Part shown: positions 904 through 31,923 of the stretch, piece after piece
Layout: the number at the start of each line of letters is the position of its first letter
How positions within the stretch are numbered: the stretch's first letter is position 1
DNA from: Gammaproteobacteria bacterium
GTDB lineage: Bacteria > Pseudomonadota > Gammaproteobacteria > Eutrophobiales > Eutrophobiaceae
Direction: 5' to 3'
DNA: 35,805 nucleotides
Assembly (NCBI GenBank): GCA_028281365.1
Contig: JANQJZ010000043.1
Coordinates: forward strand, 1-35,805
Translations under genes and position numbers: made by a program
Notes under the pieces: model-generated
What the model was told of the DNA's origin: nothing
The model's input: the letters and a program-made list of their open reading frames with translations, nothing else
Database searches by the model: none

Positions 904-1764
904 ATGAAAAAATTGCTTTTCCAACTTGATACGGATGCTCATCCGGCTGTATTCGACACAGTGGTGGCTTATGATGGTGGTGCTGATCACGTCATCGGGC
1001 ATGGCAATGTTACACCCGAAAATGTTACACCTTTAGTCGAAGGCGCTATTTTTACCCGTGCTCCAAAAGAAAAAAAATATACTGCCCTGTTTGTGGGTGG
1101 CAGCGACATGGTAGCAGGTGAACAGTTATTTAAAGCCGTACAAAAAAACTTTTTCGCTGATTTTCGTGTTTCTGTCATGCTCGATAGCAATGGCAGTAAC
1201 ACAACTGCAGCTGCAGGTGTTGCAAAGTTATTAAACAGCGGCGAAGTCAAAGGGAAAAAAGCGGTTATTTTGGCTGGAACTGGCCCAGTTGGCCAGCGCG
1301 CTGCGGTTATGTTAGCAAAAGAAGAGGCAAGTGAAGTTGTTATTACTTCCCGCCAATTAAGTCGAGCGGAGAAAGCCTGTGCAGATATTAATAAGAGTTT
1401 TGGTGTAGATATTACGCCTGCTGAAGGGGCAGATTATGATGCCCGTGCCAAGGCAATCGAAAATGCTCAGATTGTCTTTGCTGCTGGTGCTGCGGGTGTT
1501 GAATTATTAAAGCCTGAACACTGGGAAACTAATTCAAATATTGAATTAATGGCCGATGCAAATGCCACACCGCCGATTGGTATTGGTGGTACAGACATGA
1601 TGGATCGAGGACAAGATCGAAATGGTAAAATTGTGTGGGGTGCGATCGGGTTTGGTACATTAAAACTCGCTGTTCATCGCGCATGTATCGATAAGTTATT
1701 TGAAAGTAATGATCAATTATTTGATGCAGAAGAGATATTCAGTCTTGCCAAGACAATGGCGTAA
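904..1764 (+). CDS. mtdA: NADP-dependent methylenetetrahydrofolate/methylene-H4MPT dehydrogenase (MtdA)
   Basis: This 286-residue protein resembles MtdA of methylotrophs along its whole length. The start (KKLLFQLDTDAHPAVFDTVV), the block MLDSNGSNTTAAAG and the C-terminus ending FDAEEIFSLAKTMA are all characteristic. The Rossmann glycine motif GTGPVG lies at residues 125-130 and would bind NADP. The enzyme oxidises methylene-H4F (and in characterised MtdA also methylene-H4MPT) to the methenyl form, in the cytoplasm. The start is supported by an AGAGGAAAT site about 8 bases upstream. The divergent fchA provides the next step, which supports MtdA over the H4MPT-only relative MtdB. No strong terminator follows. 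Confidence 0.9.
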   Translation: MKKLLFQLDTDAHPAVFDTVVAYDGGADHVIGHGNVTPENVTPLVEGAIFTRAPKEKKYTALFVGGSDMVAGEQLFKAVQKNFFADFRVSVMLDSNGSNTTAAAGVAKLLNSGEVKGKKAVILAGTGPVGQRAAVMLAKEEASEVVITSRQLSRAEKACADINKSFGVDITPAEGADYDARAKAIENAQIVFAAGAAGVELLKPEHWETNSNIELMADANATPPIGIGGTDMMDRGQDRNGKIVWGAIGFGTLKLAVHRACIDKLFESNDQLFDAEEIFSLAKTMA

Positions 1765-1848: not shown

Positions 1849-2988
1849 ATGAAATGCTCTGTTTTTACATTTTTTTTAATACTATTTTCATCTTCCATCT
1901 TTGCTGCAAGCTACCAGGAAGGAAAAGAAGCCTACCTCAATAAAGACTATGCCAGAGCACTTGAGATTCTTAAGCCCTTGGCTGAACAAGGTAATTCACA
2001 AGCTCAAATTACCATTGGCCTTATGTATGATTACGGTCATGGTGTTAAAAAGGATCCAGCTGAATCGATCAAATGGTATCGAATGGCAGCTGAACAAGGC
2101 GTACCACTGGTTCAACATGATATCGGCGTTAAATATTTTCAGGGACAAGGTGTAGAACAAAATTATCTGGAAGCTGCCAAATGGTGGAAATTGTCTGCTG
2201 CTGCAGGAATTGCTGATTCGCAATTTAATCTGGGCCTGATGCATTATCGTGGCATTGGGATTGAAAAAGATTATGTTAAAGCTGCAGAGCTTTTTGAAGC
2301 AGCCGCAAAACAAGGTCACGGTAATGCGCAATATAGTCTTGCAGTTATGTATGCTTTCGGTCAAAGCAAGGAAAAAGATTACAAAACGGCACTTGAATGG
2401 TTCGGGAAAGCAGCAGATCAAAAAATTGCACAGGCACAATTTAATTTAGGTGTCTTTCATGAAAATGGTTACGGCGTTAAAAAAAATAATAATAAAGCCT
2501 GGGATTGGTACAAATTGGCTGCCGATCAAGGTTTACAAGAAGCCATTGAAAAACTCAAAACCTTGAAAAAAGAACCTGCTCAAATAGCCGAAACCGCAGA
2601 AACTGAAATTTCTGCGTCTTCAACTGAAGATACATCAGAAGCTATTGGTTCATCATTTTCTATCCAGGACTTGACTACGGACACTTCTCGAGAGGGTCTA
2701 AATGTCAGTGATTGGCTTCGTCAACAATCGCCAAAAAACTATACCTTACAACTTGCCAGTGTTGTTAATGAAAACGATATAATTAAATTTATTAAAGAAT
2801 CCAATTTTGGTCCAAAAGCCGGCTATATTGAAGTTATTGTTGATGGAACTAATCGCTATACTGCGGTATATGGTCTCTATGATACATACAAACAAGCCGA
2901 GCTTGCGATTAATGAATTACCAGCTTCGATACAAAGAGCAAAACCATGGGTCCGCAACACAGGAATTCTTCAGGGCATTTTGCGCTGA
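1849..2988 (+). CDS. Secreted Sel1-repeat protein with C-terminal SPOR domain
   Basis: The protein starts with a signal peptide (basic start, hydrophobic stretch, SSSIFAAS cleavage region). It then carries about five or six Sel1-like TPR repeats of 36 residues, recognisable as A-x-x-G-x-x-x-A-Q-x-x-L/I-G-x-M-Y followed by Y/W-x-x-AA. A low-complexity Glu/Ser/Thr linker leads to a C-terminal domain of about 80 residues beginning NYTLQLAS, which fits the SPOR family (binds denuded peptidoglycan glycans). It is therefore probably a periplasmic scaffold at the cell wall. I chose the ATG at 1849; an in-frame TTG at 1816 would add 11 residues to the signal peptide. Two unknown genes follow closely (22 bp, then 9 bp) and probably share the transcript. 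Confidence 0.8.
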   Translation: MKCSVFTFFLILFSSSIFAASYQEGKEAYLNKDYARALEILKPLAEQGNSQAQITIGLMYDYGHGVKKDPAESIKWYRMAAEQGVPLVQHDIGVKYFQGQGVEQNYLEAAKWWKLSAAAGIADSQFNLGLMHYRGIGIEKDYVKAAELFEAAAKQGHGNAQYSLAVMYAFGQSKEKDYKTALEWFGKAADQKIAQAQFNLGVFHENGYGVKKNNNKAWDWYKLAADQGLQEAIEKLKTLKKEPAQIAETAETEISASSTEDTSEAIGSSFSIQDLTTDTSREGLNVSDWLRQQSPKNYTLQLASVVNENDIIKFIKESNFGPKAGYIEVIVDGTNRYTAVYGLYDTYKQAELAINELPASIQRAKPWVRNTGILQGILR

Positions 2989-3010
2989 TTATTAAAGGGG
3001 CAATTACCTA

Positions 3011-3739
3011 ATGGCCTCGTTTAAGGAAATATTACGCAATAGTGAAGAAGAGTTACTCCAGCTCCTATATAAGTTTAATAAATCTGAAATTAGTGACAAA
3101 GACAAGGCTGAAGATATTGCAGCACAGTTAAAATTGCGTGAGGCCCAGTTAATTTGCGCAATTGGTTTTAACGAAAATGTAAAAGAAATACCTGAAATAC
3201 CAATTATACTCGGATTCGAAAGTCTGGATGTATTATTCAATTCAAGAAATGAATATTTTACGACTGATATATACAAGCTTTTAACACTGGATAACATCCT
3301 GTCAATTTATTCTGCAGTCAAAAGTGACGTTCAGAATAAGCAAATCATGGAGTATCTATTAAAAAACCGGTTGATTACCATTGAAAAAAGAATCGAAGAA
3401 ACCGTTAATTCCCTGATTATTGATAAATATAAAGCTGAGATGAAAGCTATATATTCGGATGAAATAGTTAGTATTGATTTTGTCGAAAACCGTTTAGACC
3501 AGTCTGATAGCGGGTTTCGGGCGCTTCTGAATGAAGTGACACTGATTGTTGAAAGTAAAATAATCCCTGTAGGTGATATTTTTTTTAGAGATTCTATCCT
3601 GCCTCAGGAAAAACGGAAGTTACTCGACAAGGGTTTGATACCTTCAAACCTGATTGAAATGCGTTTGGGTGATCCAAACATTACAGATGTAGAAAAGAAA
3701 ATACTTTATGATTATAAAAAAATGCATCGCGAGAGCTAA
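3011..3739 (+). CDS. Unknown protein, first of a tandem paralogous pair
   Basis: I do not recognise this 242-residue protein. It has no signal peptide or membrane segment and is rich in charged residues and predicted helices, so a soluble cytoplasmic protein is likely. It aligns end to end with the next gene: shared blocks are SF-x-E-x-L near the start, QL-x-CA-x-GFN near residues 46-53, LGF...RNE-x-FTTD-x-Y...DNIL-x-IYS near 66-100, an RL/EAN-like block, and a C-terminal FF-x-D-x-L...EK-x-x-L. An AAAGGGG ribosome binding site precedes the ATG. It follows the Sel1-SPOR gene by 22 bp, so a shared operon is likely. No catalytic motif is evident. Confidence 0.75.
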   Translation: MASFKEILRNSEEELLQLLYKFNKSEISDKDKAEDIAAQLKLREAQLICAIGFNENVKEIPEIPIILGFESLDVLFNSRNEYFTTDIYKLLTLDNILSIYSAVKSDVQNKQIMEYLLKNRLITIEKRIEETVNSLIIDKYKAEMKAIYSDEIVSIDFVENRLDQSDSGFRALLNEVTLIVESKIIPVGDIFFRDSILPQEKRKLLDKGLIPSNLIEMRLGDPNITDVEKKILYDYKKMHRES

Positions 3740-29299: not shown

Positions 29300-29600
29300 T
29301 ACGCCTTTTGCTCCAGATCTTCGTTGCTTACCTTTTATCCTTGGTCATGTATTAATACATACACTCGGCTTTGGCTTCCTCGATTGCCGTACCCAAGGGC
29401 AGGCCGCGCACTTCCAGACGCAATTCTATCTCCCCCGTCCATGGGGTCGTGCGTCGCTCTCGGCCTCCGTTCCAGACTCGGCTCTACCGATTACATCCAT
29501 GTAATCGTACCTCCTCCATTATCCATGCAATCGTCCGTTCCTCGAAAGACTCGCGTCTTGTACTAGAACAAACTACTCGGTTTTAACACCGAAGTTAAAA
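29300..29600. repeat. Palindromic repeat element A, upstream of obgE
   Basis: This gene-free stretch between rpmA and obgE is a chain of small palindromes. The clearest are CGATTACA-TCCA-TGTAATCG (29488-29507), CCCCG-TCCA-TGGGG (29433-29446), a 14-base palindrome centred on TTAA (29347-29360) and TTTTAAC/GTTAAAA (29581-29600). The 43 bases at 29379-29421, read on the - strand, match 31498-31540 at 37 of 43 positions, showing that this is a repeat family. ORFs crossing it look like chance. Confidence 0.65.
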
Positions 29601-30434: not shown

Positions 30435-31442
30435 ATGGCCCAGAATGATGCTACAGCGACCGAATCTGAGTTAATGGATATAGACCAAATTCGCGAACTA
30501 ATTTCGGCCGATATGGACCTGGTTAACAAGCTCATTGAAGACAGCCTTTATTCCGAAGTCGGACTAATTGATCAACTCGGGCATTACATTATCAATAGTG
30601 GCGGAAAACGGCTCCGGCCTGTGGTCGTCTTACTCAGTGCCCGGGCCTTTGCTTATCAGGGTGATCAACATATTAATCTGGCCGCCATTATTGAATTTAT
30701 CCATACCGCGACCCTTTTGCATGATGATGTTGTCGATGCCTCATTACTACGGCGAGGACATGAAACCGCAAATCAACGCTGGGGTAATGAAGCCAGTGTT
30801 TTAGTTGGCGATTTTGTTTACTCACGCGCCTTTCAAATGATGGTTAATGCCAATTCAATGGAAGTTATGAATATTCTGGCAGAAGCGACCAATACCATAG
30901 CAGAAGGTGAAGTGCAGCAACTCATCAACAGGCATGATCCTGAAACAACTGAAGAAAGTTATCTTGCAGTTATCCGAAATAAAACTGCCAAGCTTTTTGA
31001 AGCTGCTGCTCAATTAGGCGCTGTCATTTCGCAACGTCCCAATGAAGAGAAGCTCGCTATGGCAAAATATGGCAAACATCTTGGGACAGCATTTCAACTG
31101 ATTGATGATGTATTGGATTACAGTTCTTCATCCGATGAACTCGGTAAAAATATCGGCGATGATCTGGCAGAAGGAAAACCAACCTTGCCGTTACTTTATG
31201 CTATGTGGAATGGTAATGAGGAAGAAGCCGGAATAGTACGTGATGCTATTGAAAATGGCGGGCTCGAAAATATAGAAAAGATAAAACAAACTATCAATAA
31301 AACAGGTGCCATTTCTTATACAGCCAGGATTGCAAATCAAGAGGCAAACCTTGCAATAGAAGCATTAACGGGATTACCCTCTTCTGAATACCTGGATGCA
31401 CTCTATGCACTGGCAAGATTTTCTATAGAAAGACAATACTAA
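30435..31442 (+). CDS. ispB: Octaprenyl/polyprenyl diphosphate synthase IspB
   Basis: The 335-residue trans-prenyl synthase has the two Asp-rich motifs that bind Mg-diphosphate: D97-D-V-V-D101 and D224-D-V-L-D228. GGKRLRP and EFIHTATLLHDDVVD are typical of IspB. It elongates FPP with IPP to the C40 (or similar) side chain of ubiquinone. An alternative ATG at 30474 would give 322 residues, nearly the E. coli length (323), and aligns with its first residue; neither start has a strong ribosome binding site. Product chain length cannot be read from sequence with confidence. It ends 5 bp before a tRNA-Pro pseudogene. Confidence 0.94.
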   Translation: MAQNDATATESELMDIDQIRELISADMDLVNKLIEDSLYSEVGLIDQLGHYIINSGGKRLRPVVVLLSARAFAYQGDQHINLAAIIEFIHTATLLHDDVVDASLLRRGHETANQRWGNEASVLVGDFVYSRAFQMMVNANSMEVMNILAEATNTIAEGEVQQLINRHDPETTEESYLAVIRNKTAKLFEAAAQLGAVISQRPNEEKLAMAKYGKHLGTAFQLIDDVLDYSSSSDELGKNIGDDLAEGKPTLPLLYAMWNGNEEEAGIVRDAIENGGLENIEKIKQTINKTGAISYTARIANQEANLAIEALTGLPSSEYLDALYALARFSIERQY

Positions 31443-31447
31443 CAATT

Positions 31448-31617
31448 CGGGGTGTAGCTCAGCCTGGTACGACTGCATGGATGCAGGAGGTAGAGTCGCG
31501 TCGGGAAGTGCGCAGCCTACCCTTGGGTACAGCGACCGAGAGCGCATTTAATATATCGCGCAGCGATGGCCCGAAGGGCGGAGTACATGGACGTACGGAG
31601 TAAATCCTGTCACTCCA
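31448..31617 (+). pseudogene. tRNA-Pro pseudogene split by a repeat element
   Basis: The first 22 bases (31448-31469: acceptor strand, D-arm up to GGTA) are identical to the intact tRNA-Pro 200 bp downstream. The last part (AAATCCTGTCAC then TCC, 31602-31617) matches its T-arm and acceptor 3' strand with substitutions. The anticodon arm and variable region are missing and replaced by about 130 bases of palindromic repeat. The acceptor stem is damaged (a G-U and a C/A mismatch) and the CCA context is lost, so it cannot be a working tRNA. Confidence 0.75.
31470..31601 (+). repeat. Palindromic repeat element B, inserted in the tRNA-Pro copy
   Basis: The insert contains GCAT-GG-ATGC, GTACATGGACGTAC (palindrome with one wobble) and GCCCGAAGGGC. 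Positions 31498-31540 match element A (29379-29421 reversed) at 37 of 43 bases. Positions 31567-31608 match element C (31812-31853 reversed) at 35 of 42, and one outer stem pair changes from G-C to A-T between copies, keeping the palindrome. The insert is therefore a mosaic of modules also found in A and C. Confidence 0.7.
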
Positions 31618-31647
31618 TATATATAAATTTTATAATTCCAATTCAGT

Positions 31648-31724
31648 CGGGGTGTAGCTCAGCCTGGTAGAGCACCACGTTCGGGACGTGGGGGTCGTAG
31701 GTTCAAATCCTGTCACCCCGACCA
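31648..31724 (+). tRNA. tRNA-Pro (anticodon CGG)
   Basis: The 77 bases fold as a cloverleaf: acceptor CGGGGTG/CACCCCG, D-arm with AGCTCAGCCTGGTAGAGC, anticodon stem CCACG/CGTGG with loop TTCGGGA (anticodon CGG at 31682-31684, Pro codon CCG), T-arm GGTTCAAATCC and encoded ACCA. The C1-G72 pair is the normal proline identity element. It is flanked by a broken copy of itself on the left and a palindromic element on the right. Confidence 0.97.
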
Positions 31725-31752: not shown

Positions 31753-31923
31753 TTTTTTCGTGAGTGCGAGAAGTCCCCGCGCACAGAACCGGAGTGTATA
31801 AATAATACATGAGGATTTGCTCAATACATCCATGTATCTCGCCCTTCGGGCCAGCCTTCGGCTGTCCAAAATTTGCTCCTGCAATTTTGTGAGCACGGAG
31901 ACGACGAAGCAATCGCGAAAAAA
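31753..31923. repeat. Palindromic repeat element C with terminal inverted repeats (MITE-like)
   Basis: The 171-bp element begins TTTTTTCGTGAGTGC (31753-31767) and ends with its inverse GCAATCGCGAAAAAA (31909-31923; 13 of 15 paired). Inside are ATACA-TCCA-TGTAT (31824-31837), GCCCTTCGGGC (31841-31851), AGCCTTCGGCT (31853-31863) and an imperfect CAAAATTTGC...GCAATTTTG hairpin (31867-31889). It lies 28 bp after tRNA-Pro and carries no credible ORF. Size, terminal repeats and shared modules fit a small non-autonomous repeat family. Confidence 0.6.

Follow-up and report, generated by a model that had tools for sequence, protein, structure and literature searches.

A broken tRNA-Pro(CGG) copy with hairpin cassettes in two loops, and half-copies beside many tRNA genes of the same family

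A broken tRNA-Pro copy flanked by ispB and an intact tRNA-Pro gene

The window (the whole stretch of 35,805 nucleotides that we analyzed, from a gammaproteobacterium of the family Eutrophobiaceae) contains a broken copy of tRNA-Pro(CGG) at 31448-31616. Upstream of it is an ORF from the ORF listing (30435..31442, + strand), which encodes a polyprenyl diphosphate synthase-like protein, is a conserved neighbor of tRNA-Pro in relatives, and which we take to be ispB. Downstream is the intact tRNA-Pro(CGG) gene (31648..31724, + strand), found by ARAGORN and by the Rfam tRNA model (RF00005, 64 bits). The original prediction had suggested a check with tRNA-finding programs; ARAGORN and Rfam call the intact copy alone, and recognize a cloverleaf only there.

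All parts of the broken copy are on the + strand. Its 5′ part (31448..31469) comprises the 5′ acceptor strand and the D-arm up to GGTA, and is identical to 31648-31669 in 22/22 positions, as the original prediction stated; when one preceding base is included, the match to the start of the intact gene is 23/23. A D-loop hairpin cassette of type M1 (CGACTGCATGGATGCAGGAGGTAGAG...GCGACCGA, 31470..31539) is inserted after GGTA. It is followed at 31540..31547 by a remnant of the 3′ strand of the D-stem (GAGCGC, 31540-31545) and the start of a degenerate anticodon arm, as judged by eye from the intact copy and from the corresponding copy in genome G013 (L015). Next comes a T-loop hairpin cassette (31548..31601), whose first hairpin is degenerate and which covariance models R1 and R2 (see below) relate to the core of RtT RNA. 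The copy ends with the 3′ side of the T-loop and a remnant of the T-stem and acceptor (AAATCCTGTCACTCC, 31602..31616); 14/15 of its nucleotides are identical to the intact tRNA-Pro, so this end is as recognizable as had been claimed. The replaced center (31470-31601) spans 132 bases, in agreement with the roughly 130 bases originally proposed. However, it is not one repeat, as had been thought, but two cassettes split by the GAGCGC remnant.

The modules were also said to recur at 29.4 and 31.8 kb, and they do, as inverted relatives. A relative of the D-loop cassette module lies at 29379..29450 (− strand) and is 81% identical over 72 nt to 31469-31540, while 31567-31608 is 83% identical over 42 nt to 31812-31853, inverted. 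The T-loop cassette core also occurs as a free copy, outside of any tRNA remnant, at 31819..31889 (− strand; model R2, 62.4 bits, E 2.5e-15). The beginning of the D-loop cassette recurs at 18 other places in this genome.

Broken tRNA copies in related genomes

We compared 26 tRNA-Pro loci, from 21 genomes of the family and 5 named public contigs. The gene ispB is upstream of tRNA-Pro at 25 of them, and at 21 of these 25 there is an intact tRNA-Pro alone, with no broken copy. We therefore regard the broken copy as derived, i.e., as an addition. An upstream broken copy is present at three of the 25 loci (in this genome, G025 and G013), and the locus in G022 has a 3′ half-copy downstream. No genome with two intact tRNA-Pro copies, for which the original prediction recommended looking, was seen. 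Neither did we find the whole segment conserved without a tRNA-Pro neighbor, the observation that had been named as speaking against the prediction; the T-loop core by itself is present at sites distant from tRNAs.

Orthologous sites occur in empty and filled states. G025 and G013, which belong to one genus (g14), share an old broken tRNA-Pro copy. The D-loop cassette of G013 has the same site and left end as that in the window, and is absent from the same old broken copy in G025. At the tRNA-Pro(GGG) locus of genus g4, the site is filled in 2 genomes and empty in 9, and one further g4 genome is unreadable at this locus, having a stretch without a full tRNA. The broken and intact copies had been proposed to form a dated record of the event, but nothing in these loci dates it.

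Partial copies are not restricted to tRNA-Pro. We examined 225 tRNAs called by ARAGORN in 162 stretches from seven genomes of the family, and defined an end-copy as a match to either tRNA end within 450 bp, on the same strand, with at most 3 mismatches in 20 nucleotides. The numbers of ARAGORN tRNAs examined and of tRNAs listed by the Rfam model were, respectively, 31 and 32 in this genome (G000), 39 and 40 in G008, 33 and 34 in G011, 25 and 26 in G022, 31 and 36 in G015, 32 and 43 in G014, and 34 and 44 in G025. End-copies are present at 39 of the 225 tRNAs: 7/31 in this genome, 8/39 in G008, 13/33 in G011, 8/31 in G015, 3/25 in G022, and none in G025 (0/34) or G014 (0/32). G014 also lacks any match to the cassette. 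The broken tRNA-Pro copy of G025 has 4 mismatches in the 20-mer and was thus missed by our rule, so this test does overlook some copies. Searches of the opposite strand and of shuffled flanks of the 225 tRNAs found no end-copies, and we reject chance as the origin of those at the 39 tRNAs.

The end-copies obey an outer-end rule. Upstream copies keep the 5′ end of the tRNA in 21 cases and the 3′ end in 0, and downstream copies keep the 3′ end in 21 cases and the 5′ end in 1; an inner end thus accounts for 1 of 43 end-matches. The positions of the breaks are similarly constrained. The break is in the T-loop in 19 of the 21 downstream copies, while the 21 upstream copies break in the D-loop (13), in the T-loop (3) or elsewhere (5, including one in the anticodon loop of a tRNA-Ser(CGA)). 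That broken copies elsewhere almost always have the outer end only fits partial duplications that break at a loop.

Two further observations concern these copies. Initiator-tRNA copies in this genome and in G008 (L110, L135) break near the anticodon loop and have similar short inserts. We also considered whether the downstream cassette is invariably preceded by a tRNA 3′ half in inverted orientation, and cut this claim back: for 11 of 21 downstream copies, the match to the cognate tRNA ranked within the top 5% when compared with non-cognate tRNAs. This inverted 3′ half is probably the 5′ strand of the outer helix of RtT.

The cassettes and their kinship with RtT RNA

The T-loop cassette has the order TTCGA, hairpin CAAATTTG..CAAATTTG, a variable hairpin, GCCCGAAGGGC, hairpin GTACATGGATGTAC, GGAGTA and AATCC. 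A consensus query of the cassette has matches in 23 of 53 genomes of the family, and in 61 of 369 genomes sampled from the class, where two candidates were scored per genome. Among the best 30 loci of the family, a script finds a tRNA 3′ end at the terminus of 16; 9 more lie in a tRNA 5′ half as judged by eye, and 5 do neither. The script allowed at most 4 mismatches in 18 nucleotides against a library of 198 tRNAs, and was positive for 17 of 37 family matches. These proportions should be read with the caveat that the consensus query itself has tRNA-like ends and therefore favors tRNA-associated loci. An intact tRNA is present at 20 of 29 class loci, and the 3′ end of that same tRNA follows the cassette at 13 (at most 4/18 mismatches). 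Cassettes occur in both orientations among the replica intervals.

Some copies of the core are not beside a tRNA. A Salmonella record (L359:540-760) and a Proteus record (L358:601-677) each have the core at 77 bits, with no tRNA in the single 1.28-kb stretch covered; the latter is apparently inside a coding stretch, and the flanks of the former look like an ERIC element. In a separate observation, a solitary 3′ part of a tRNA-Arg (L327, ~1311-1407, minus strand) has an RtT-like core in its T-loop and is ~2.3 kb from the nearest tRNA of this genome.

The Rfam model of RtT (RF00391) does not match the window copy up to E 10, leaving it below the gathering threshold, and does not match the family loci tested up to E 1. 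One class locus (L329) passes the threshold, with 46.3 versus 45 bits, as the sole pass among 20 class and own-locus sources, and eight more class loci match at E 5e-5 to 0.33. Because the Rfam model misses the window and the family loci tested, we built our own covariance model, R1, from 29 downstream units, none of which come from this genome or E. coli; 3 of 32 units were left out of the alignment as partial or misplaced. R1 matches the T-loop cassette of the window (31525-31620, 45.3 bits, E 1e-12) and the free copy near 31.8 kb (55.5 bits); in E. coli, it recovers each of the four tyrT/tyrV RtT repeats (E 2.5e-11 to 2.8e-6). With the tRNA-derived ends removed (model R2), the window cassette scores 39.6 bits (E 3e-9), and three of the four E. 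coli repeats match at 1.3e-4, the fourth at 0.11. R2 matches 39 times in the tRNA regions of three genomes of the family (203 kb in total), versus 0 in 104 kb of control (tRNA regions of G014 and regions around Y1 transposases). Judging by these models, the T-loop cassette is part of a class-wide family, distantly related to the E. coli RtT repeat, and its core is homologous to the RtT core, the link running through intermediates.

The order of parts agrees with RtT RNA (RF00391; tyrT/tyrV, rttR), i.e., GGTTCGAC, hairpins, CCCGAAGGGCGRAG, a hairpin, GAGTAATCC and the 3′ end of the adjacent tRNA. In contrast to RtT, the cassettes lie beside many tRNA isotypes, both upstream and downstream, and in both orientations. 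The window copy differs further in that it is upstream, composite and truncated and is missed by the Rfam model. It has 15 nt of T-arm and acceptor and no CCA; downstream copies in relatives carry the tRNA 3′ end. As it is below the Rfam threshold, we class the window copy as related to RtT and not as a member. Earlier work describes RtT as an RNA released from transcripts of tRNA operons, tyrT among them, and places Actinobacillus members upstream of tRNA genes (PMC4986893); another paper links RtT-like sequences to BIMEs and attenuators (PMC2965389).

The cassettes in the D-loop are diverse. A second family starts immediately downstream of the D-loop GG (GG|GYGAR...) at many isotypes, with a hairpin GAAA..TCCRGTGGA..TTTC whose stem varies while its pairing is kept; it occurs in upstream copies at L099, L102, L150, L151, L153, L158, L161, L162, L176 and L177. 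In G015 (L176, L177), another cassette contains, after GGACA, the same M1 module (CGACTGCATGGATGCAGGAGGTAGA) as the window, so modules insert into modules. Upstream copies of tRNA-Leu(CAA) from two genera (L196, L252) have common cassettes whose stems differ yet remain paired and whose GGA loops are kept (by eye); each 5′ half follows the tRNA of its own genome.

Mobile cassettes, functional RNAs and other explanations

We consider it probable that tRNA-Pro(CGG) was partially duplicated and that the segment is the dead duplicate, bearing mobile hairpin cassettes in its D-loop and T-loop, with one tRNA left intact. The cassettes may travel as hairpins of DNA or RNA and may prefer ...CGA in the loop of a hairpin. 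Their insertion into a tRNA gene would be tolerated only when coupled to a partial tandem duplication that spares one tRNA. If this duplication has one of its breakpoints within the tRNA, where the cassette sits, the outer half would survive and the inner half would be lost, and the broken half would decay afterwards. The outer-end rule would follow from such a duplication, as would the fact that the tRNA gene always stays intact. The occurrence of the core away from tRNAs (at 31.8 kb, in Salmonella and in Proteus) favors a mobile hairpin cassette over an RNA gene bound to tRNAs.

An alternative is that the half-copies and cassettes are selected, functional RNAs made from tRNA transcripts, such as RtT-type small RNAs, processing switches or decoys that bind CsrA. 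In the core, 97.4% of cells are paired, and both sides have changed in 10 of 17 pairs; none of 500 shuffles scores as high on any measure of pairing, although kinship alone can inflate such counts. These compensatory changes would fit a functional RNA, but mobile hairpins that are copied as such would covary too. The presence of the cassette throughout the class could equally mean selection for an RNA. Moreover, upstream copies of tRNA-Gln in five genomes (G058, G007, G032, G009, G024) resemble, by eye, circularly permuted versions of the downstream form. In them the strand GGATGAGAAC (or one closely similar) follows the cassette, where the downstream form has it in front, and the same pairing strands are kept. 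The window copy is without the GGATGAGAAC strand. One report states that E. coli RtT is released from tRNA transcripts (PMC4986893).

The case for CsrA comes from hairpins with GGA in the loop, which are dense in the replica intervals (43 sense and 20 antisense in 6.6 kb over all intervals, versus 2 sense and 3 antisense in 12.8 kb of G014 flanks). These loops could be CsrA-binding sites, a putative role that we assign from sequence; a CsrA consensus of RUACARGGAUGU is given in PMC7652899. A csrA gene (PF02599, E 1e-26) adjoins the tRNA-Ser array of this genome. At L114:2416-2598 and 2722-3405, this csrA is situated by a tRNA-Ser(GCT)/tRNA-Arg array, and both tRNAs have half-copies that bear cassettes. 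Separately, the region of the tRNA-Leu upstream copy in G022 (L252:1040-1157) has a weak match to RsmY (27.6 bits, E 0.007, threshold 57), in keeping with GGA-loop hairpins. Against a functional RNA, in seven downstream loci all of the GGA hairpins are antisense, because the cassette is reversed there; the degenerate first hairpin of the window copy and the cores located off tRNAs also argue against it. On balance, we find a functional role unlikely.

The original prediction envisaged that tRNA-Pro was first duplicated completely in tandem and that one copy then lost its center to an incoming small repeat. Much of this idea holds up, namely a duplicated tRNA-Pro, a copy broken by mobile-looking hairpin repeats, and the targeting of tRNAs. 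A whole-copy duplication followed by a single repeat does not. It is true that the broken copy has both 5′ and 3′ pieces, and that a tRNA copy in G015 likewise retains 58 nt of the 5′ part plus a 3′ piece of the T-arm. However, there are two cassettes in two loops, inner ends are nearly absent from the end-matches, contrary to what complete duplication predicts, and none of the genomes compared has both copies intact. We therefore judge a complete duplication to be quite improbable.

It is highly improbable that the half-copies are scars (attL/attR) of tyrosine-recombinase integration into tRNA genes: downstream copies do span the T-loop to CCA, which is the usual att segment, but the replica intervals measure ~80-420 bp, upstream 5′ half-copies are as common as 3′ half-copies, and cassettes occur in both orientations. 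Integration has been described as leaving tRNA gene fragments (PMC9897764), and our loci resemble this outcome in having one complete and one partial tRNA copy. They differ from it in that the interval is ~130 bp with no integrase; the window interval between the tRNA-Pro copies has no integrase gene and no ORF of at least 80 aa.

As to what might move the cassettes, we could link neither a transposase nor a recombinase to them, and no mobilizing protein was identified at the Y1 loci or in the window interval. A Y1 transposase (PF01797) is encoded in 26 of 53 genomes of the family. The core was found at 0 of 11 Y1 (RAYT) loci, and an M1 module was near one of the 11 (L322); we rejected an origin by the REP/RAYT route on the former count. 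The cassettes are like REP/BIME elements with RAYT in being small, palindromic, mosaic repeats in intergenic DNA, and unlike them in that they are precisely placed in tRNA loops and their core is off the Y1 loci. GTAG- and CGTC-tagged palindromes are covered in one review (PMC3733652). The Salmonella core, inside sequence that looks like ERIC, is reminiscent of ERIC elements with internal insertions, and differs from the tRNA-associated cassettes in lacking a tRNA.

Returning to mobile cassettes, we tentatively suggest a more general version, which is possible but doubtful. RtT-type cassettes would be class-wide mobile hairpins that home to tRNA loops and always spare the working tRNA through a coupled partial duplication; the D-loop family would do likewise upstream, the fold would tolerate circular permutation, and the RtT of E. 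coli would be one old, domesticated case. RtT itself is already known, and papers on it were found. We found no paper that reports the two-sided half-copy pattern at many isotypes in the literature searched, which mostly excluded subscription journals.

Through these loci, an orphan small RNA familiar chiefly from the tyrT operon of E. coli is tied to a general process at tRNA genes of Gammaproteobacteria. If the cassettes are mobile, which can be tested through empty and filled sites, they would exemplify how an element can exploit the most highly conserved genes and yet leave its host alive. If they are instead functional, many tRNA transcripts would contain a previously unrecognized RNA domain.
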